Shown: in pieces, positions 3,083-63,854 of the stretch
How the letters are laid out: the number at the start of each line of letters is the position of its first letter
How positions within the stretch are numbered: position 1 is the stretch's first letter
DNA from: Anaerolineales bacterium
GTDB lineage: Bacteria; Chloroflexota; Anaerolineae; Anaerolineales; UBA11579
Assembly (NCBI GenBank): GCA_021463845.1
Contig: JAJTXV010000001.1
Location: 710,174 to 774,173 of the forward strand
DNA length: 64,000 nt
Reading direction: 5' to 3'
Made by a program: the position numbers and the translations under genes
Notes under the pieces: model-generated
Told to the model about the DNA's origin: nothing
What the model saw: the letters and a program-made list of their open reading frames with translations, nothing else
Databases searched by the model: none

Positions 3083-4312
3083 ATGCCTAGCAAAGCAAAG
3101 TCCACGCCCGACCAAAACCCAGAGACCCAAGCCCCCCCTGAGATCGAGAGCCCCATAGCCGCCGAGGCCAAGCCCGCGGCCCGCTCTTTGCAGGAGCGGC
3201 TGCCCGCGCCCCTGCGGCGCTACTGGAAGATCGGCCTGATCGCCATCGTGGCGCTGGGCGTGGTGCTGCTGATGAACACGGTCGCCTCCGGCATGCAGGC
3301 TGGCCAGCAACAGGAGATGCGCTCCACCGCCATGGCCATGGCCCAGACCACGATTGACGCGGTGACCGGCGGCGAAGCAGGGGCGCTGATGCCATCCTAC
3401 GACAGCGCCATCGACTTCGGCCAGGGCATCAGCCGCCTGGCCTCGATGGATACCGTCATCCCCAGCCGCGCCCGCGTAGACATCATGCACCACACGGTGG
3501 AGCGCGGCGATACGCTATTCGGCATCGCTGACCTGTACGGCCTCAAGCCAGAGAGCATTCTGTGGTTCAACTTTGACACGCTGGAAGACAACCCCAGCGA
3601 GATCCAGCCTGGCTTGATCCTCAACATTCCGCCGGTGGACGGCATCCTGGTGACCTATCACGCCGGCGAGAGCTTGTACGCCATCGCCGAGAATGCCAGC
3701 TACACCACCACCGTCACGATCGACGACATCATCAACTGGCCCAGCAACAATCTGGACCCGTACGAGACCGACCCCAACAACCCCAACATCCCGGATGGCT
3801 TCCAGCTCATCATCCCCAATGGCTCGCGTGAATTGCGAGACTGGGGTCCGCCCGCCATCACGCGTCAGAACGCCGCCGTGGCGGCCTACTACGGCCCCGG
3901 TGCGTGTGGCGCCATCTATGAAGGCGCCATCGGCAACGGCACCTTCCGCTGGCCCACGGTGGCTACGTATCTCTCCGGCTTTGACTGGAACCCGCCCACC
4001 CACAACGGCATCGATATCGCTGGCGCCGAAGGCAACGCCATCTACGCCACCGATGGCGGCGTGGTGGTGTACGCGGGTTGGTCCAACTACGGCTACGGCA
4101 ATCTGGTAGTGATCGACCACGGCACCGGCTGGCAGTCTGCCTATGCCCACATGTTCAGCTACTCGGTCAGCTGTGGCCAAAGCGTGTCGCAAGGCACCAT
4201 GATCGGCGGCGTTGGCAACACGGGCAACTCCTCCGGCGCTCACTTGCACTTTGAGCTGACCAGCTCGCTGTATGGCAAGGTGAACCCGTGGGACTTCCTG
4301 TTCATCCCATAA
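3083..4312 (+). CDS. LysM-domain M23 family metallopeptidase, membrane anchored
   Basis: LysM-like HTVERGDTLFGIADLYGLKPESILWFN; M23 motifs HNGIDIAG, HGTGWQSAYAHM, GNTGNSSGAHLHFEL. Confidence 0.9.
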   Translation: MPSKAKSTPDQNPETQAPPEIESPIAAEAKPAARSLQERLPAPLRRYWKIGLIAIVALGVVLLMNTVASGMQAGQQQEMRSTAMAMAQTTIDAVTGGEAGALMPSYDSAIDFGQGISRLASMDTVIPSRARVDIMHHTVERGDTLFGIADLYGLKPESILWFNFDTLEDNPSEIQPGLILNIPPVDGILVTYHAGESLYAIAENASYTTTVTIDDIINWPSNNLDPYETDPNNPNIPDGFQLIIPNGSRELRDWGPPAITRQNAAVAAYYGPGACGAIYEGAIGNGTFRWPTVATYLSGFDWNPPTHNGIDIAGAEGNAIYATDGGVVVYAGWSNYGYGNLVVIDHGTGWQSAYAHMFSYSVSCGQSVSQGTMIGGVGNTGNSSGAHLHFELTSSLYGKVNPWDFLFIP

Positions 4313-4365
4313 ATTGAGAGATTTCTTGCCGAGAGGTTGGCGGAGTGCTATAATGCCGCTTCTTC

Positions 4366-4442
<77 letters not shown>

Positions 4443-4443
4443 T

Positions 4444-4472
4444 AAATCACCCGCCTGGGTGATTTTTCGTTA
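4444..4472 (+). terminator. hairpin terminator after tRNA-Val
   Basis: AAATCACCCGCCTGGGTGATTTTTCG. Confidence 0.7.
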
Positions 4473-4482
4473 AGAGGGATAC

Positions 4483-5337
4483 ATGCTGCGCGAGTACACC
4501 GCATCCGGACTCGAAGCCTTGCAGTTAGCCACCGCGCTGCTGCAACGCGCCCGCCTGGCCGACCCGCTGGTCGGCGTATGGGAAGCGGCCGATGTGCAGT
4601 GGGCTTGGCGCAGGCCGCGCCCCTCTGACGATGTAGAAAAGTTATTCTGGCTTGATGACGCCGGACCGGCGGCTGGCGTGCTGTTGACTACCCCCAATGA
4701 CGGCAGCTGGCAATGTGACCCGGTCATCGTGCCAGGCACGGGCCTTGACCCAGCCACCATTTGGCAGCGCGCCCTTGAGTACGCCGCAAAACACTCATCC
4801 AATTTTGCCATCCCAGTGAGTGACGATGACGCTGTGCTGCGCCAGTTGGCCCAGCAGTCCGGGCTCACCGCCGGCGAAAGCGACAGCACGGCCTGGCTGG
4901 CTGCTACGCAGCTGCCGCAGCAGCGCCAGCTGCGTGACAACTTCGTGCTCACTGACCGCGCCACAGCCAGCGGCCCACACCCCATGCAGTCTCGCGCTGG
5001 AGACCAGGTTGCCGAGCGGCTGGCGCAGTGTTCACTCTACGACCCTGCACTTGACCTGGCAGTGGAGACGCACAGCGGCGAAATAGCTGGCGTATCACTT
5101 TATTGGTTTGACCCAGTAACCAAGGTGGGGCTGGTGGAGCCGATGAGAGTGGAGGATAACTTCCAGCGTAAGGGCTTGGCGCGCGCCATGCTGTGCGAAG
5201 GTATCCGGCGCTTGGCCGCCAAAGGCGCCGAGCGTATCAAAGTTTCATATCAGACGGAGATTGCTGGCGCTCTCTATCAAGCCGTGGGCTTCCAGCCACA
5301 ATCCACAACCACTTGGTATCAAGCTTCGGCTAAATAG
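4483..5337 (+). CDS. GNAT family N-acetyltransferase
   Basis: 284 aa; C-terminal DNFQRKGLARAMLCEGIRRLAAKGAERIKV...A..LYQAVGFQP GNAT motif A/B. Confidence 0.8.
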   Translation: MLREYTASGLEALQLATALLQRARLADPLVGVWEAADVQWAWRRPRPSDDVEKLFWLDDAGPAAGVLLTTPNDGSWQCDPVIVPGTGLDPATIWQRALEYAAKHSSNFAIPVSDDDAVLRQLAQQSGLTAGESDSTAWLAATQLPQQRQLRDNFVLTDRATASGPHPMQSRAGDQVAERLAQCSLYDPALDLAVETHSGEIAGVSLYWFDPVTKVGLVEPMRVEDNFQRKGLARAMLCEGIRRLAAKGAERIKVSYQTEIAGALYQAVGFQPQSTTTWYQASAK

Positions 5338-7836: not shown

Positions 7837-8343
7837 ATGTCCAAGCAATGGAACCAAGCCCCGGCGATGGAAATTGACCCCGCCAAGACCTACACCGCCA
7901 CTATCACCACTGACAAGGGCGATATGGTCATCAAGCTATTCGCCGCTGAGGTGCCCGCCACCGTAAACAACTTCGTCTTCCTGGCCCGCCAGGGTTATTA
8001 CGACGGCACCACTTTCCACCGCGTCATCGGCAACTTCATGGTCCAGGGCGGCGACCCGACCGGCAGCGGTATGGGCGGCCCCGGCTACAAGTTCGCCGAC
8101 GAGTTCCACCCCAGCCTGCGCCACAGCAAGCGCGGCATTCTCTCCATGGCCAACGCCGGGCCGAACACCAACGGCTCGCAGTTCTTCATCACTCACGGCC
8201 CCACCCCGCACCTCGACAACCGCCATGCCGTCTTCGGTGAGCTGATCGAGGGCGAGGATGTGCTGATGGCCATCCCCGAGCGTGACCCCAGCCGAGGCGG
8301 CCCGGCCGGCCAGCTGGTCTCCATCACCATCCAGGAGAGCTAA
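7837..8343 (+). CDS. peptidyl-prolyl cis-trans isomerase, cyclophilin type
   Basis: [59 protein letters not shown] 7837 preferred over ORF-track start. Confidence 0.93.
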
Positions 8344-8344
8344 C

Positions 8345-8896
8345 ATGGCGGCGCGCCCAGGCACTCTGAAGCTGTGGCGCGCCCTGGCGTTGGTGGCAGT
8401 GGTCGGCATTAGCCTGGCCATCTTCTTCCTGCCCAGTGAATACACTGACAAGTTACAGGCCCTGGGCTACCCGGGCCTGTTTCTTATTACGCTCATCTCA
8501 TATGCCACCGTGTTCCTGCCCGCCCCGGCCGCGCTGATCGTGTTCAGCATGGGCGCCCACCTGCCGCCGCTGGGCGTAGCCCTGGCGGCCGGCAGCGGCG
8601 CCGCCCTGGGTGAGCTGACCGGGTACCTGGCCGGCTTTAGCGGCCAGGCCGCCATCGAGAACACCGCCGCCTACCAACGTATGGTGGGCTGGATGCAGCG
8701 CAACGGCCCGTTGACCGTGTTCGCCCTGGCCGCCGTGCCCAACCCAGTTGTGGACCTCAGCGGCATTGCCGCCGGCGCGCTGCGCATGCCGCTGCCGCGC
8801 TTCCTGTTCTTCTGCTGGCTGGGCCAGGTACTTAAGATGTTTGTGTTTGCTTCCGCGGGCGCGGGTATGTTTAGGTTGCCGTATTTTTCGGAGTAA
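8345..8896 (+). CDS. small VTT/DedA-like integral membrane protein
   Basis: Multiple TM segments, GAALGELTGYLAGFSGQ and AAVPNPVVDLSGIAAGALRMP resemble SNARE-associated/VTT domain. Confidence 0.65.
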   Translation: MAARPGTLKLWRALALVAVVGISLAIFFLPSEYTDKLQALGYPGLFLITLISYATVFLPAPAALIVFSMGAHLPPLGVALAAGSGAALGELTGYLAGFSGQAAIENTAAYQRMVGWMQRNGPLTVFALAAVPNPVVDLSGIAAGALRMPLPRFLFFCWLGQVLKMFVFASAGAGMFRLPYFSE

Positions 8897-8947
8897 CCAC
8901 AGATGAACACAGATAAACACGGATAAATCTGCGTTCATCTGTGGTTA
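8894..8947. repeat. inverted repeat of the CACAGATGAACACAGATAAACACGG family
   Basis: 15-bp perfect arms TAACCACAGATGAAC / GTTCATCTGTGGTTA flanking a 24-nt loop. Confidence 0.85.
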
Positions 8948-8965
8948 AAAAAGAAGGAGCAAGCA

Positions 8966-10327
8966 ATGGTTGATTTCAAACAGGCAGACCAATATGTGAA
9001 CGACAATCTCGACGCCAGCCTGGACGAGCTCGCCGCGCTGTGCGCCGTGCCCAGCGTCGCCGCCCAGGGCATCGGCATCGACGAAGCCGTTGAAGTCGTA
9101 CAGGCCATGCTGGCCAAGCGTGGCTTCACCACTGAGGTGATGCAGACTGGCGGCGCGCCGGTGGTGTATGCCGAGCGCAAAGGCCGCAATACCAGCAAGA
9201 CGCTGCTCTTCTACAACCATTACGACGTCCAGCCCGCCGAGCCGCTGGAGCTGTGGCACACCCCGCCCTTCGAGGCGACCCGCAAGGACGGCAAGATGTA
9301 CGCACGCGGCGTCAGCGACGACAAGGGCCATTTCGCCAGCCGCCTGTTCGCGCTCGACAGCCTGCTGGCGCAAGATGGCGAGCTGCCCTGCAATATCAAG
9401 TTCGTCGTCGAAGGCGAGGAAGAGATCGGCAGCATCAACATGCCCGCTTTCGTCAAGAAGCACGCCAGCAAGCTGGCGGCGGACGCGTGCATCTGGGAAT
9501 TTGGCTACGTGGACGCCAACGACAAGCCCATCCAGTACATGGGCATGCGCGGCATCTGCTATGTCGAGATGACGGTCGAGCTGCTCAAGACCGATGTGCA
9601 CTCCGGCCTGGGCGGCTCCATCTTCCCCAACGCCGCTTGGCGGCTGGTCTGGGCACTCAACAGCCTCAAGGGGCCAGATGGCCGCATTCGCATCCCCGGC
9701 CACTACGACAAGGTCGTGCCACCCACGGAGCTTGACCGCCAGCTGGCCGCCGCCCTGCCCTACGAAGGCGATGACTATAAAGAGCGCTACGGCGTGAAGG
9801 AGTTCCTGCGCGGCACCGAGGGCAACCCGGATCTGGCCCTGCAAGAATTCCTCGAGCCCACCATGACCATCAGCGGCCTGACCGCTGGCTACCAGGGCCC
9901 CGGCACCAAAACCGTGCTGCCCGCCAAGGCCAGCGCCAAGATCGATTTCCGCCTGGTGCCGGACCAGACGCCCGAAGATGTGATGAAGGGTCTGCGCGCC
10001 TTCCTCGACGCCGAAGGCTTCACCGATGTACACGTGAAGGAGCTGGGCAGCGAGCCGCCCGGCCGCACCGACCCCAGCGATCCGTTCCTGAACATGGTGG
10101 TGGAAACCGCCGCTGAGGTGTATGGCGCGCCGATGACCCGCGTGCCGATGAGCGGCGGTTCCGGGCCAAACCATGCCTTCCTCCATTACCTCAAGTTGCC
10201 TGTGGTGACCGCCGGCCTAGGCTACCCGGGCGCCCTCGTGCACGCTCCCAACGAGAACATCCGCGAGGATCTGTACGTCAAGGCCACCCAGCACATCGCC
10301 CGCGTGGTCACCAAGTTTGCTGAATGA
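8966..10327 (+). CDS. M20 family dipeptidase
   Basis: 453 aa; LLFYNHYDVQPAEPLELWHTPPFEATRKDGKMYARGVSDDKGH, EGEEEIGS. Confidence 0.93.
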   Translation: MVDFKQADQYVNDNLDASLDELAALCAVPSVAAQGIGIDEAVEVVQAMLAKRGFTTEVMQTGGAPVVYAERKGRNTSKTLLFYNHYDVQPAEPLELWHTPPFEATRKDGKMYARGVSDDKGHFASRLFALDSLLAQDGELPCNIKFVVEGEEEIGSINMPAFVKKHASKLAADACIWEFGYVDANDKPIQYMGMRGICYVEMTVELLKTDVHSGLGGSIFPNAAWRLVWALNSLKGPDGRIRIPGHYDKVVPPTELDRQLAAALPYEGDDYKERYGVKEFLRGTEGNPDLALQEFLEPTMTISGLTAGYQGPGTKTVLPAKASAKIDFRLVPDQTPEDVMKGLRAFLDAEGFTDVHVKELGSEPPGRTDPSDPFLNMVVETAAEVYGAPMTRVPMSGGSGPNHAFLHYLKLPVVTAGLGYPGALVHAPNENIREDLYVKATQHIARVVTKFAE

Positions 10328-26810: not shown

Positions 26811-26821
26811 TGTGCAATGTG

Positions 26822-27232
26822 CATCCCGATCGCAGCGAAGCAATCTGGTTTACTTCCTGCCCTCTCCCTAAGGGAGAGGTGCGCTGTTAGCGCGGCGAGC
26901 GCAGCAAGCGGGTGAGGATCGCGCACTACACCGCAACCCACCCGTCATTCCGAGCGAAGCGAGGAATCCTTTAGGGCAAACAAAGTCAACTTAGCATGTC
27001 CTAAAGGATTCCTCCTCGCCGCTACGCGGCTCGTTCGGAATGACATGACCCTTGCACTCGTAAGGGCGCACTGCGGTGCGCCCCAACATCGTCATTGTCA
27101 GCGGAGTAAAGAATGCGCGCCGTCCTCCGTCTTTGCGAGGAGTGCGCAGCGGAGCTGCGCCCGACGAAGCAATCCCCAGGCCTTGCAAAATGGGCTTGGA
27201 GATTGCTTCGCTTCGCTCGCAATGACGGGTCG
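26822..27232. repeat. intergenic repeat cluster (GTCATTCCGAGCG and GAAGCAATC families)
   Basis: Includes 101-bp inverted element 26944-27044 closely matching 40021-40127. Confidence 0.85.
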
Positions 27233-27319
27233 GGGCAAGGCTCGGAGCAGGTAAGGCCCAAAATGAGCCCACCTTGACAACCCTTGCATCCCTAGAACAT
27301 ATGTGCGAACATACTCCTC

Positions 27320-28534
27320 ATGGATACGCTCCAAAAAATACGCGTCGTCGGGCGCGATATGCACCTCGAATCCGACAGCGAGAATGACCAGATCTGCGCC
27401 CCCGTGGTCGACGGCCGCCAGCTACCCGCCCGCCCCGTCGCCACCATCCCCATCAGCGAGGTCGCCCTGCCTGGCGGCCGCAAGATGAAAGTGGTCAAGA
27501 GCATGCTCACCACCGCCTGCGAGCGCAACTGCAACTACTGCCCATTCCGCGCCGGCCGCAGCAAAATGCAGCGCATCACCATCAAGCCCGACGAAATGGC
27601 CCAGGTCTCCTACCAGGCCTACCGCCAGCGTCTCGTCGAGGGCCTCTTCCTCAGCTCCGGCATCATCAAGGGCGGCGTCACCACCCAGGACAAGCTGATC
27701 GACACGGCCGAAATTCTGCGCAACAAGCTCAGCTTCCGCGGCTACCTGCACCTCAAGATCATGCCGGGGGCTGACCGTGACCAGGTGCGCCGCTCCATGC
27801 AGCTGGCCGACCGCATCTCGGTCAATCTCGAAGGCGCCAACGCCCAGCGTCTGGCCACCCTGGCGCCCATGAAGAAGTTCGCCGACGAGCTGCTCACTCC
27901 GCTCAAGTGGGCGCAGGAGATCCGCGCCAACGAGGCGCCCAGCTCCACCTGGAACGGGCGCTGGGCCAGCTCGGTCACCCAGTTCGTCGTGGGCGGCGCA
28001 GACGAGACCGATGTTGAGCTGGTCTCGACCTCCGAATACCTGTATCACGAGCTCAAACTCAAGCGCACCTACTACTCAGCCTTCTCGCCGATCATCGACA
28101 CCCCGCTGGAGAATCACCGCCCGGAGAATCCCTGGCGCGAACACCGCCTCTACCAGGCCTCCTTCCTGCTGCGTGACTACGGCTTCGCCATGGAGGAACT
28201 GCCCTTCAACCAAAGCGGCAACCTGCCACTCAACAAAGACCCCAAAACCGCCTGGGCCGAGCAGACCTTGCTGCACAAGCCGGTCGAGCTCAATACCGCC
28301 AGCCGTGAGCAGCTGCTGCTGGTGCCTGGCATCGGCCCCAAGAGTGCGGATGCGATCCTGCGCGCCCGCCGCCTGCATGCCATCACCAGCCTGGAGCAAC
28401 TCAAGCAGCTTGGCATCGTGCCCAAGCGCAGCGCACCGTTCGTGCTGCTCAACGGCCGCCAGCCCAGCTTCCAGCCGCGTTTGATGGACATGGCCGAGCC
28501 CACCCCGCAGCTGCGCCCGCGCTTCCCCGGTTAG
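27320..28534 (+). CDS. putative DNA modification/repair radical SAM protein with C-terminal helix-hairpin-helix
   Basis: CX3CX2C motif TTACERNCNYCPFRAGRS; HhH NTASREQLLLVPGIGPKSADAILRARRLHAITSLEQLKQLG; matches TIGR03916-type architecture from memory. Confidence 0.85.
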   Translation: MDTLQKIRVVGRDMHLESDSENDQICAPVVDGRQLPARPVATIPISEVALPGGRKMKVVKSMLTTACERNCNYCPFRAGRSKMQRITIKPDEMAQVSYQAYRQRLVEGLFLSSGIIKGGVTTQDKLIDTAEILRNKLSFRGYLHLKIMPGADRDQVRRSMQLADRISVNLEGANAQRLATLAPMKKFADELLTPLKWAQEIRANEAPSSTWNGRWASSVTQFVVGGADETDVELVSTSEYLYHELKLKRTYYSAFSPIIDTPLENHRPENPWREHRLYQASFLLRDYGFAMEELPFNQSGNLPLNKDPKTAWAEQTLLHKPVELNTASREQLLLVPGIGPKSADAILRARRLHAITSLEQLKQLGIVPKRSAPFVLLNGRQPSFQPRLMDMAEPTPQLRPRFPG

Positions 28535-28643
28535 CGATGCTGATTAAAATCAAGTGACTAAGAGGATTCGTAATTGGCAATTGGTAATTAAGTCTCTAAT
28601 CTCAAATCTCTGATCCTCTAATTACCAATTACTATTACCAACT

Positions 28644-29375
28644 ATGCCAGGCCGCTTCACCCTCACCGCCAGCCCAGACCTCATCCGGGACACTTTCCCC
28701 TGGCTCAATGTGCCAGCCCAGCTTGCCCCGCGCTACAACATCGCCCCCACCCAACCCGTCGCCGTCGTCCTCAACGATGGCAGCAACCAAGTAGACTTCG
28801 TCAACTGGGGCCTCATCCCCTCCTTCAGCAGCGGTGGCAAGATGACCTCGCTGCTCATCAACGCCCGCTCCGAAGGCATCACCCGCACGCCTGCCTTCCG
28901 CGGCCCCTTCCGTTACCGCCGCTGCATCGTGCTGGCGGATGGCATCTTCGAATGGGTCAAGTTCCCCCGCAAACGTGAGAAGGTGCCCTATTGGGTGCAC
29001 ATGAAATCACGCCGCCCGTTTGCGCTGGCCGGCGTGTGGGATAGCTGGCTCTCGATGGACGGCTCTGAGATCAAGACTTGCGCCACCATCACCTGCGAGC
29101 CCAACGCGCTGGTCAAGCAAATTCACCACCGCATGGGCGTCATCCTGCCCGCCGAGCACATCGCTGCCTGGCTGCAGCCCGGTGAAGCCACCGACCCCAA
29201 AGCCCTGCAAGCCCTGCTGCAGCCCTACCCGCCCGACGAGATGACCTATCACCAGGTCACCCCCATCGTCAGCAGCGCGGTCAACGATGTGCCCGAGTGC
29301 ATCGCCCCGCTGCCATTTGACCCGCCGCACGAAAAGATCCTGGAACAAAACTTTGGAGAGAAACGTGAACGTTGA
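28644..29375 (+). CDS. SRAP (HMCES/YedK-like) domain protein with Cys2 to Pro substitution
   Basis: MPGRFTL...RYNIAPTQPVAVV...NWGLIPSF...INARSEGI...RYRRCIVLADGIFEWVKFPRKREKVPYWVHM...IHHRMGVILP; normal family N-terminus is MCGR. Confidence 0.92.
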   Translation: MPGRFTLTASPDLIRDTFPWLNVPAQLAPRYNIAPTQPVAVVLNDGSNQVDFVNWGLIPSFSSGGKMTSLLINARSEGITRTPAFRGPFRYRRCIVLADGIFEWVKFPRKREKVPYWVHMKSRRPFALAGVWDSWLSMDGSEIKTCATITCEPNALVKQIHHRMGVILPAEHIAAWLQPGEATDPKALQALLQPYPPDEMTYHQVTPIVSSAVNDVPECIAPLPFDPPHEKILEQNFGEKRER

Positions 29376-29859
29376 AGCCTTCCGCACCTTGTATGACTAT
29401 CACATCAGCGAGAACCGCAAGATCTGGGAGCGCCACCTCGCCAACCTGCCCGAAGAGGTCTGGACCCAGCCGCTGGACTATTCCATGGGCTCGCTGCGCA
29501 CGCAGATCGCCCACCTGATCCGGGTTGACCACATCTGGTTCCTCGACCTCGGCGCGCCGATGCCCGAAGAAGAGATCGACGAAAAGAACCCCGGCAAAGA
29601 CCGCCCGGCCCTGCGCGCCTATTGGGATCAGGTGGAAGAGGCGATGCGCACGTATATCAACGGCCTTACCGAGGAAATATTGGCGAGCAAACCGCTGCAG
29701 GGTGAAGACGCCGGACTGGCCGTATGGCAAGTGCTGCTGCACGTCGCCAACCACGGCACAGACCACCGCGCCCAGATCCTGCGCGCCCTGCACGACGCAG
29801 GCGAGAAGACCGGCCCGCAAGACCTGGTCTTTTACCTCTACGACCAGCAGCAGAAATAG
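29365..29859 (+). CDS. DinB family protein
   Basis: GTG start overlapping SRAP stop by 11 nt with upstream GGAGAG; RTLYDYHISENRKIWERHLANLP...IAHLIRVDHIWF...LLHVANHGTDHRAQILRALHDAG. Confidence 0.88.
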   Translation: MNVEAFRTLYDYHISENRKIWERHLANLPEEVWTQPLDYSMGSLRTQIAHLIRVDHIWFLDLGAPMPEEEIDEKNPGKDRPALRAYWDQVEEAMRTYINGLTEEILASKPLQGEDAGLAVWQVLLHVANHGTDHRAQILRALHDAGEKTGPQDLVFYLYDQQQK

Positions 29860-29877
29860 CATGCTCTTAAGCCAGGC

Positions 29878-30210
29878 ATGCTGCGCCCACCACCCGTCAT
29901 TGCGAGCGCAGCGAAGCAATCCCCAAACCATTAGCCGTGCATCCCGAGCGCAGCGAGGGATCCTCATATACTGAACTGGCAACCAATGCTATGTTGCAAA
30001 TACGTTAGGGGCGCACCGCAGTGCGCCCACCTTTCCGTCATCCCGAGCGCAGCGAAGCAATCCCCAAGCCATTAGTCGTGCATCCCGAGCGCAGCGAGGG
30101 ATCCTCATGCACTCAACTGGCAACCAACGTCGTGCTACAAAAACGTAGGGGCGCAGCATGCTGCGCCCACCCTTCCGTCATTGCGAGCGTAGCGAAGCAA
30201 TCCCCAAGCC
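29878..30210. repeat. tandem ~140-bp repeat, about 2.3 copies
   Basis: Units begin at 29896, 30037 and 30177 with GTCATTGCGAGCG(C/T)AGCGAAGCAATCCCCAA... Confidence 0.88.
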
Positions 30211-30221
30211 AATTAAGCAAA

Positions 30222-62294: not shown

Positions 62295-63854
62295 ATGAAA
62301 AAGCCGAAACTTGCACTTTTGCTGCTACCGATCCTGCTGATAACACTGGCCTGCCGCTTCGGTGCGCCGCCGCCCAGCACTCCCACGGCTGAAGCCCAGC
62401 GCACACCAAGTGGCGGCAGCAGCAACTTTGGCGGCACGCAACCGGCGCCCCCATTCCAAGCCTGCCCCGTGCAGCTACCCAGTGTTGGCGCAGGCAGCAA
62501 CCCGCAGCTCGGTGCCGAAGGCCTGGGCGACCCGTATTATCCGCACCTGGGCAACGGCGGCTACGATGTGCAGCACTACCACATCGAACTCAATGTCGAC
62601 CTGGCCAGCCAGCACCTGGACGGAGCGGTGCGTATTGACGCCATCGCCACCCAGACCCTCAGCAGCTTCAATCTGGAGTTGGCTGGCATGCAGATCCACT
62701 CAGTAAGTGTGCAAAACAGCCCGGCTGAACACTCACGCATGGGCAATGAGCTCACCATTGAGCTGGCCCAGTTCATCCAGGCCGGCCAACCATTCGAAGT
62801 AGCGATCGAATACAGCGGCAGCCCCGGCGAGGGCATCGATTTCAGCGGGATGGAAGAGTTCGAGGTGGGCTGGGGCTGGTACCCGGATGGCGATGGCGCC
62901 TATGTGGCCGCCGAGCCAAGCGGCAACTCTACCTGGATGCCGGTGAACGAGCACCCCTCGGATAAGGCCACATACAGCTACGCCATCACCGTGGCGGAGC
63001 CGTACGTGGCGGCCGCCAACGGCGTGCTGCAAGACACGATCAGCCTTGGCGATGGCACACGCACCTTCATATGGAACTCGGCCTACCCGATGGCCAGTTA
63101 CCTGGCCACGGTGGGCATCGGCGAGTTCGATATCGAGACCAGCATTGGGCCGAACGGGCTGCCGATCCGCGATTACTTCGAACGCGACATTCCGCAGGAT
63201 GTGCGCGCTGACTTTGCCCGCACGGACGAAATGCTGGAGCTGTTCAACGAGCTAGTCGGCCCGTACCCGTTCGAGGTGACGGGCGTGATCGTGCATGATA
63301 TTGACTTCGGGTTTGCGCTGGAAACGCAGACGATGAGCGTCTTCGGCTCCGGCTTCACCGACGAATACGTGGTGGCGCACGAGCTGGCGCACCAGTGGTT
63401 CGGCAACAGCGTCGGCCTCACCTGCTGGCAGGACCTGTGGCTGAACGAAGGCTTCGCCACCTACTTGAGCGTACTATGGAACGAGCACGCCTACGGCGAA
63501 GATGCCCTGATAGATGAGATGGAGTGGTACTACTGGCAGGTGGCGCAGAGCGGGCCGTTCGCCTCGCCGCCCGGCAACCCAGGGCCGGATGACCTGTTCA
63601 ACTTTGGCGTGTACTACCGCGGGGCGCTGACCCTGCATGCACTGCGCGAGAGGGTCGGCGATGAGGTCTTCTTCGGCATCTTGCAGCGCTACTACGCCGA
63701 CTTCCGTGACAGCAACGCCACCACGGCGGATTTTGTAGCCATCGCCGAGCAGGTCAGCGGTCAAAGCTTGCAGGAGTTCTTTGACGCCTGGTTGTATGCG
63801 GCGGACGTGCCCGATATCCCCGAGATGGGCTTGTATCTCTCAGATTATCAGTAG
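62295..63854 (+). CDS. M1 family metallopeptidase lipoprotein
   Basis: Lipobox LLITLACRF; YVVAHELAHQWFGNSVGLTCWQDLWLNEGFATY (HEXXH-X18-E). Confidence 0.95.
   Translation: MKKPKLALLLLPILLITLACRFGAPPPSTPTAEAQRTPSGGSSNFGGTQPAPPFQACPVQLPSVGAGSNPQLGAEGLGDPYYPHLGNGGYDVQHYHIELNVDLASQHLDGAVRIDAIATQTLSSFNLELAGMQIHSVSVQNSPAEHSRMGNELTIELAQFIQAGQPFEVAIEYSGSPGEGIDFSGMEEFEVGWGWYPDGDGAYVAAEPSGNSTWMPVNEHPSDKATYSYAITVAEPYVAAANGVLQDTISLGDGTRTFIWNSAYPMASYLATVGIGEFDIETSIGPNGLPIRDYFERDIPQDVRADFARTDEMLELFNELVGPYPFEVTGVIVHDIDFGFALETQTMSVFGSGFTDEYVVAHELAHQWFGNSVGLTCWQDLWLNEGFATYLSVLWNEHAYGEDALIDEMEWYYWQVAQSGPFASPPGNPGPDDLFNFGVYYRGALTLHALRERVGDEVFFGILQRYYADFRDSNATTADFVAIAEQVSGQSLQEFFDAWLYAADVPDIPEMGLYLSDYQ

Follow-up and report, generated by a model that had tools for sequence, protein, structure and literature searches.

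The SRAP gene of the window and its product

The window, the whole 64,000-nucleotide stretch of DNA analysed here, contains a gene of the SRAP family in which the codon for the catalytic cysteine is replaced by one for proline. It is flanked by two genes on the same strand. The features are as follows, with residue numbers of the window protein and of YedK.

27320 to 28534, plus strand: radical SAM protein with HhH, rSAM_link_UDG-like, upstream of the SRAP gene (TIGR03916, synteny)
28644 to 29375, plus strand: SRAP-family coding sequence of 243 amino acids, Pro2/Gly165 variant (open reading frame, PF02586, AlphaFold2, Foldseek)
28647 to 28649, plus strand: codon 2, CCA, Pro2 (Cys2 in other SRAPs), the expected N-terminus after Met removal
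28860 to 28862, plus strand: Asn73 (YedK Asn75), invariant in 180 SRAPs
28950 to 28952, plus strand: Glu103 (YedK Glu105, general acid/base), Glu in 11 of 11 Pro2 and 168 of 169 Cys2 proteins
29124 to 29126, plus strand: His161 (YedK His160), invariant in 180 SRAPs
29136 to 29138, plus strand: Gly165, codon GGC (YedK Pro164), the partner change; all 169 Cys2 SRAPs have Pro here
29365 to 29859, plus strand: DinB/YfiT-like protein, downstream, its GTG start overlapping the SRAP stop (PF05163, 78 bits; synteny)

The protein begins MPGRFTLT (codons ATG CCA GGC CGC). It matches the SRAP profile PF02586 with 209.4 bits over residues 1–211 (profile positions 1–213 of 214), where the gathering cut-off is 27.1 bits. 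The AlphaFold2 model has the SRAP fold (pLDDT 90, pTM 0.88). A Foldseek search of the PDB at E ≤ 0.001 gave 21 matches, all of them SRAP structures and among them the YedK C2A Schiff-base complex 8d2m; the top 12 (2f20, HMCES and YedK) had a probability of 1.00 and TM scores of 0.72–0.78 on the query. Its profile match, fold and Asn, Glu and His residues place the protein in the SRAP superfamily, and the preliminary description of this reading frame as a SRAP with proline replacing Cys2 is confirmed. It is the single SRAP detected in the genome (2.33 Mb, 96% complete), whose nearest public records are Anaerolineales MAGs with 93% protein identity, which puts it in the Chloroflexota.

Authenticity of the N-terminal proline

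An MPGR start might be produced by a wrongly assigned start codon, hiding a true MCGR, or by a sequencing error; both had been raised beforehand as ways in which the reading could fail. There is no in-frame ATG, GTG or TTG 5′ of the start in the window. In the relative G008 a stop codon directly precedes the ATG, and in G002, G004, G005, G007 and G014 one is found 4 to 10 codons 5′ of it. These stops exclude a hidden MCGR start. MPGR is common to all nine genomes of the genus that yielded the gene, including that of the window, and to G014 in a sister genus of the same family, and the proline codon varies synonymously between CCA, CCC and CCG. A sequencing error is therefore excluded as well. 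In all, ten genomes besides that of the window read MPGR by one or other of these codons, and the same proteins are marked by Gly165, which is distant from the start. We consider an artefact extremely unlikely.

In the family, Pro2 is fixed in the ten genomes that have this gene with its N-terminus complete. The SRAP of G012 lacks its N-terminus at a contig end; it carries HHRMG, and so is predicted to have Pro2. No SRAP was detected in two members of the genus, G001 and G006.

Active-site residues and a coupled change at position 165

We aligned 180 distinct SRAPs, comprising 169 Cys2 and 11 Pro2 proteins, and counted the YedK residue numbers from the alignment. Whether Pro2 proteins retain the catalytic residues had been raised as a question beforehand; Asn, Glu and His are present in all 11. 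The claim that the other expected SRAP signatures are intact holds in part. Asn73, Glu103, His161 and the IHHRM motif are kept, but the residue that follows IHHRM is Gly165 and not proline. This position, four after the catalytic histidine, is Pro in every Cys2 protein (169/169), as it is in human HMCES and E. coli YedK, and Gly in every Pro2 protein (11/11). Residues 2 and 165 thus covary perfectly, 169 C/P against 11 P/G, and neither a Pro2/Pro165 nor a Cys2/Gly165 protein was seen among the 180. We infer that the two residues are in contact. A Cys2 orthologue of the Pro2 protein of G543 (see below) is predicted to have the same secondary structure at residues 4–7 and in the loop after the histidine.

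Distribution of Pro2 and Gly165

Cys2 of SRAP proteins has been called invariant (PMC9436759) and absolutely conserved (PMC3765255), and no description of a natural Pro2 SRAP was found in the literature searched. Our survey of residue 2 covered Chloroflexota genomes and viral contigs. All other Chloroflexota SRAPs fetched begin MC. At the level of the phylum, 400 genomes were searched with a pattern of a start codon, a non-T codon 2 and GR...N(A/V)RxE, which matched the window and one other sequence whose frame does not spell a SRAP start. A search for Pro2 in 400 genomes of the order returned the known family and one further true case, G543, the remaining matches being due to chance. The G543 protein has both Pro2 and Gly165, and belongs to another Anaerolineales family.

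The Gly165 signature was also searched for without regard to residue 2. Among 396 genomes of the class (235 with a SRAP match) it was found in the window only, and in the family of G543 it was found in G543 only; there was none in the 38 genomes of family f14. In viral contigs the pattern used for Pro2 gave at least 120 matches with Cys2. Candidates for Pro2 (5 matches), Gly165 (10 matches) and Ala2 or Ser2 (5 matches) in these contigs were rejected, none being a real SRAP.

Two or more origins of the double change

Trees were built without alignment columns 1, 2 and 165. In a 40-row maximum-likelihood tree free of long branches, the Pro2 proteins of the window's family group in one clade with support 100/99. 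G543 falls elsewhere, nested among the Cys2 SRAPs of its own genus (support 100/97). A single origin of Pro2 occurs in no bootstrap tree of this set, and a single Pro2 clade is rejected in the AU test (p = 0.0063). The two Pro2 groups are also apart in a 97-row tree that includes long branches, where one clade is not rejected (p = 0.32). The G543 gene occupies the syntenic position of the Cys2 genes of its genus, and the genes next to it share 72% identity with their counterparts in G043 and G030.

Since the focused tree rejects a single origin, the double change of Cys2Pro and Pro165Gly arose at least twice. Going from TGC to CCN at codon 2 takes two base substitutions, as does going from CCN to GGN at codon 165, and each transition requires both steps. 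The occurrence of the same pair on two occasions points to a functional coupling of residues 2 and 165. Because the swap was accompanied each time by the same second mutation, we think it probable that the Pro2 SRAP has a re-designed active site that works, and that the gene is not broken.

Purifying selection

Loss of Cys2 could alternatively mark a loss of function, the gene being in decay or its product inactive. The catalytic thiol is indeed gone, and the two members of the genus without a detected SRAP would fit such a course. We estimated dN/dS by the NG86 method. Values are about 0.07–0.11 between close Pro2 proteins and 0.24 for the distant pair G000 and G010. G543 compared with its Cys2 orthologues gives 0.09–0.13, and the two orthologues compared with each other 0.07. 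There are no frameshifts or stops in the Pro2 SRAP genes. The gene is under strong purifying selection. These values, the invariant Asn, Glu and His and the identical coupled change in two lineages all stand against decay, which is very unlikely; together with the start and the codon variation, the dN/dS data make error, wrong start and decay alike improbable.

Proposed chemistry of the Pro2 protein

In YedK, Glu105 and His160 open the sugar of the abasic (AP) site; attack by the N-terminal amine yields a Schiff base, after which the thiol of Cys2 closes a thiazolidine (PMC9436759). YedK C2A makes no stable crosslink; it forms a borohydride-trappable imine through its N-terminal amine and has DNA lyase activity, the rate of which drops 25-fold if E105 is altered (PMC9436759). 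The window protein shares with YedK and HMCES the fold, the Pfam match, the Asn, Glu and His residues, the NARxE and FEW/YEW motifs and its size. It lacks two features of the thiazolidine crosslinkers. Cys2, which defines them, is absent from it and from its Pro2 relatives, and the proline after the HxR(M/R) motif (YedK Pro164) is replaced by Gly165. Without a thiol at Pro2 the thiazolidine cannot close, so this type of crosslink is not possible. In lacking the thiol the protein resembles the YedK mutants C2A (the mutant in 8d2m) and C2S, but these are laboratory mutants with a primary amine, whereas the window protein is a natural form with a secondary amine and a coupled second-site change.

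A secondary amine, that of the N-terminal proline, is the nucleophile of the Fpg/Nei enzymes, and Pro2 is indispensable to the AP lyase activity of mycobacterial Nei2 (PMC11323726). In these glycosylase/AP lyases the amine of the mature N-terminal proline acts upon the abasic sugar, and the same would be expected of the window protein from its sequence. On balance we favour the reading that the Pro2 SRAP is an abasic-site processor in which the nucleophile has switched from N-terminal cysteine to proline, with the coupled change Pro165Gly, and which operates by iminium chemistry. Removal of the initiator methionine, presumably by Met aminopeptidase, would expose Pro2. Glu103 and His161 would open the sugar of the abasic site as in YedK, and the secondary amine of Pro2 could then attack C1′ to give a cationic iminium. 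This adduct might either hydrolyse, giving reversible capping, or undergo β-elimination, giving AP-lyase cleavage as in Fpg/Nei. Gly165 might leave space for the pyrrolidine ring or offer a new backbone NH. As the other catalytic residues are kept and just the thiol is gone, an iminium followed by hydrolysis or β-elimination is the best-supported inference. The Fpg-like chemistry proposed in the preliminary description is thus supported indirectly, by the invariant acid/base residues, the purifying selection and the recurrent change of Cys2 to Pro with Pro165 to Gly; the imine and lyase activity of YedK C2A and the essential Pro2 of Nei2 are in keeping with it. For a form acting as a protease only, also suggested there, no support was found here.

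The likeness to Fpg/Nei has limits. The window protein has their N-terminal proline, but the glutamate that directly follows it in Fpg/Nei is absent, residue 3 being Gly, and this sequence difference might count against an iminium. No Fpg/Nei fold or domain (PF01149) was found in the protein, for which Pfam gave SRAP only, as did the fold search of the PDB at E ≤ 0.001. The folds are unrelated, and there is no reason to expect glycosylase activity. The protein may resemble Fpg/Nei at one chemical step, but is not a member of that group.

Other considerations speak against the iminium reading. In mycobacterial Nei2 the change P2C abolishes AP lyase activity (PMC11323726); by analogy, a swap of Pro and Cys at the N-terminus can simply kill an enzyme. 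The Nei2 mutant is an engineered mirror image of the present case, a Pro2 AP lyase changed to Cys2 and tried because of YedK (PMC11323726). That swap lost the lyase, whereas the natural swap in SRAP comes with Pro165Gly. In addition, Pro2 cannot donate the hydrogen bonds that the backbone of Cys2 gives to Asn73. Finally, a standard Fpg is found in genomes of the Pro2 genus, and another AP lyase is not obviously needed.

Pro2 might instead be unreactive, the protein having kept DNA binding and the ring-opening geometry so as to shield or mark AP sites or single-stranded DNA without a crosslink. The absence of the thiol, a possible mis-orientation of Pro2 and the retention of residues conserved throughout the family would all be compatible with this, and active-site mutations in YedK lower crosslinking without loss of DNA binding (PMC9436759). 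Yet a pure binder has no need of the acid/base glutamate and histidine, which are still invariant, and any small residue would serve at position 2, while proline was taken both times, and Gly165 both times. We therefore regard a non-covalent binder as unlikely, though it deserves to be weighed beside the iminium enzyme.

Gene neighbourhood and genome context

The radical SAM neighbour ends in HhH motifs, and its match to TIGR03916 is 278 bits, below the cut-off of 343.5. Its gene adjoins SRAP in all four of the nearest relatives and, in two further genomes of the family, a Cys2 SRAP gene. We rejected it as a Pro2-specific partner because it also flanks Cys2 SRAPs. The association with SRAP in close relatives does bear on the target of the protein. 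Pro2 might react with another aldehyde (3′-PUA ends, a modified base or a radical-SAM-linked product) in place of internal AP sites, and YedK also reacts with 3′-PUA ends (PMC9436759). Against this, Cys2 SRAPs of the family (L047 and L050) have the radical SAM gene beside them too; other genes intervene between it and SRAP in G003, G009 and G010, and it was not observed next to the SRAP genes of G014 and G543. A changed target seems distinctly improbable.

The DinB/YfiT-like gene was detected beside SRAP in three of the four nearest relatives. Interspersed, REP/MITE-like repeats with cores like CGTCATTGCGAGCGCAGCGAAGCAATC occur at 26819–27235 and 29865–30220. They are intergenic, lie in both orientations with 46-nt arms that are 89% complementary, and flank the radical SAM, SRAP and DinB genes. 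The gap between the radical SAM and SRAP genes is 109 bp, with a short A+T-rich inverted repeat (AATTGGTAATTA / TAATTACCAATT) at 28574–28632 and no obvious Shine-Dalgarno sequence. The corresponding gap measures 12 bp in G007 and some 465 bp in G008, and given these differences in length, insertions may have altered the expression of SRAP.

Pro2 and Cys2 SRAPs can coexist in one genome, while that of the window has the Pro2 form alone. G014 (L237) has a Pro2 SRAP at 8693–9364 and then a divergent Cys2 SRAP (MCTAID...) at 7956–8678, both on the minus strand, head to tail and 14 bp apart; this tandem suggests a division of labour. In G008 there is a second, very divergent Cys2 SRAP (MCFRF...) at 3403–4735 on the plus strand of L042.

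The genome of the window also contains Fpg. The idea that the Pro2 SRAP substitutes for a missing Fpg was rejected, as every Pro2 genome tested has Fpg, apart from G004, which is incomplete. There was likewise no consistent link with loss of uracil-DNA glycosylase. Eight of the nine Pro2-genus genomes tested have just the weaker UDG-family match, as does G001, which lacks SRAP; G004, G014 and G543 keep the stronger one. In G000 the weaker match lies at 62497–63054 of contig C15; most genomes of the genus keep it alone, out of two UDG-family (TIGR03914-like) matches that most other members of the family have.

Implications

The biology of the SRAP family rests on the stable thiazolidine crosslink of Cys2. 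Natural Pro2 forms with an apparently obligatory glycine pose the question of whether a protector of abasic sites can be turned into a lyase or a reversible trap by changing two residues. We put forward tentatively, as a real possibility short of a probability, that a DNA-crosslinking suicide protector of the SRAP fold has, on at least two occasions, given rise by way of Cys2Pro and Pro165Gly to an iminium enzyme that acts through its N-terminal proline, an AP lyase that has converged on Fpg/Nei. If true, an unrelated fold would have arrived at Fpg/Nei chemistry, and the Pro2 forms would help to tell crosslinking from lyase activity in studies of HMCES.
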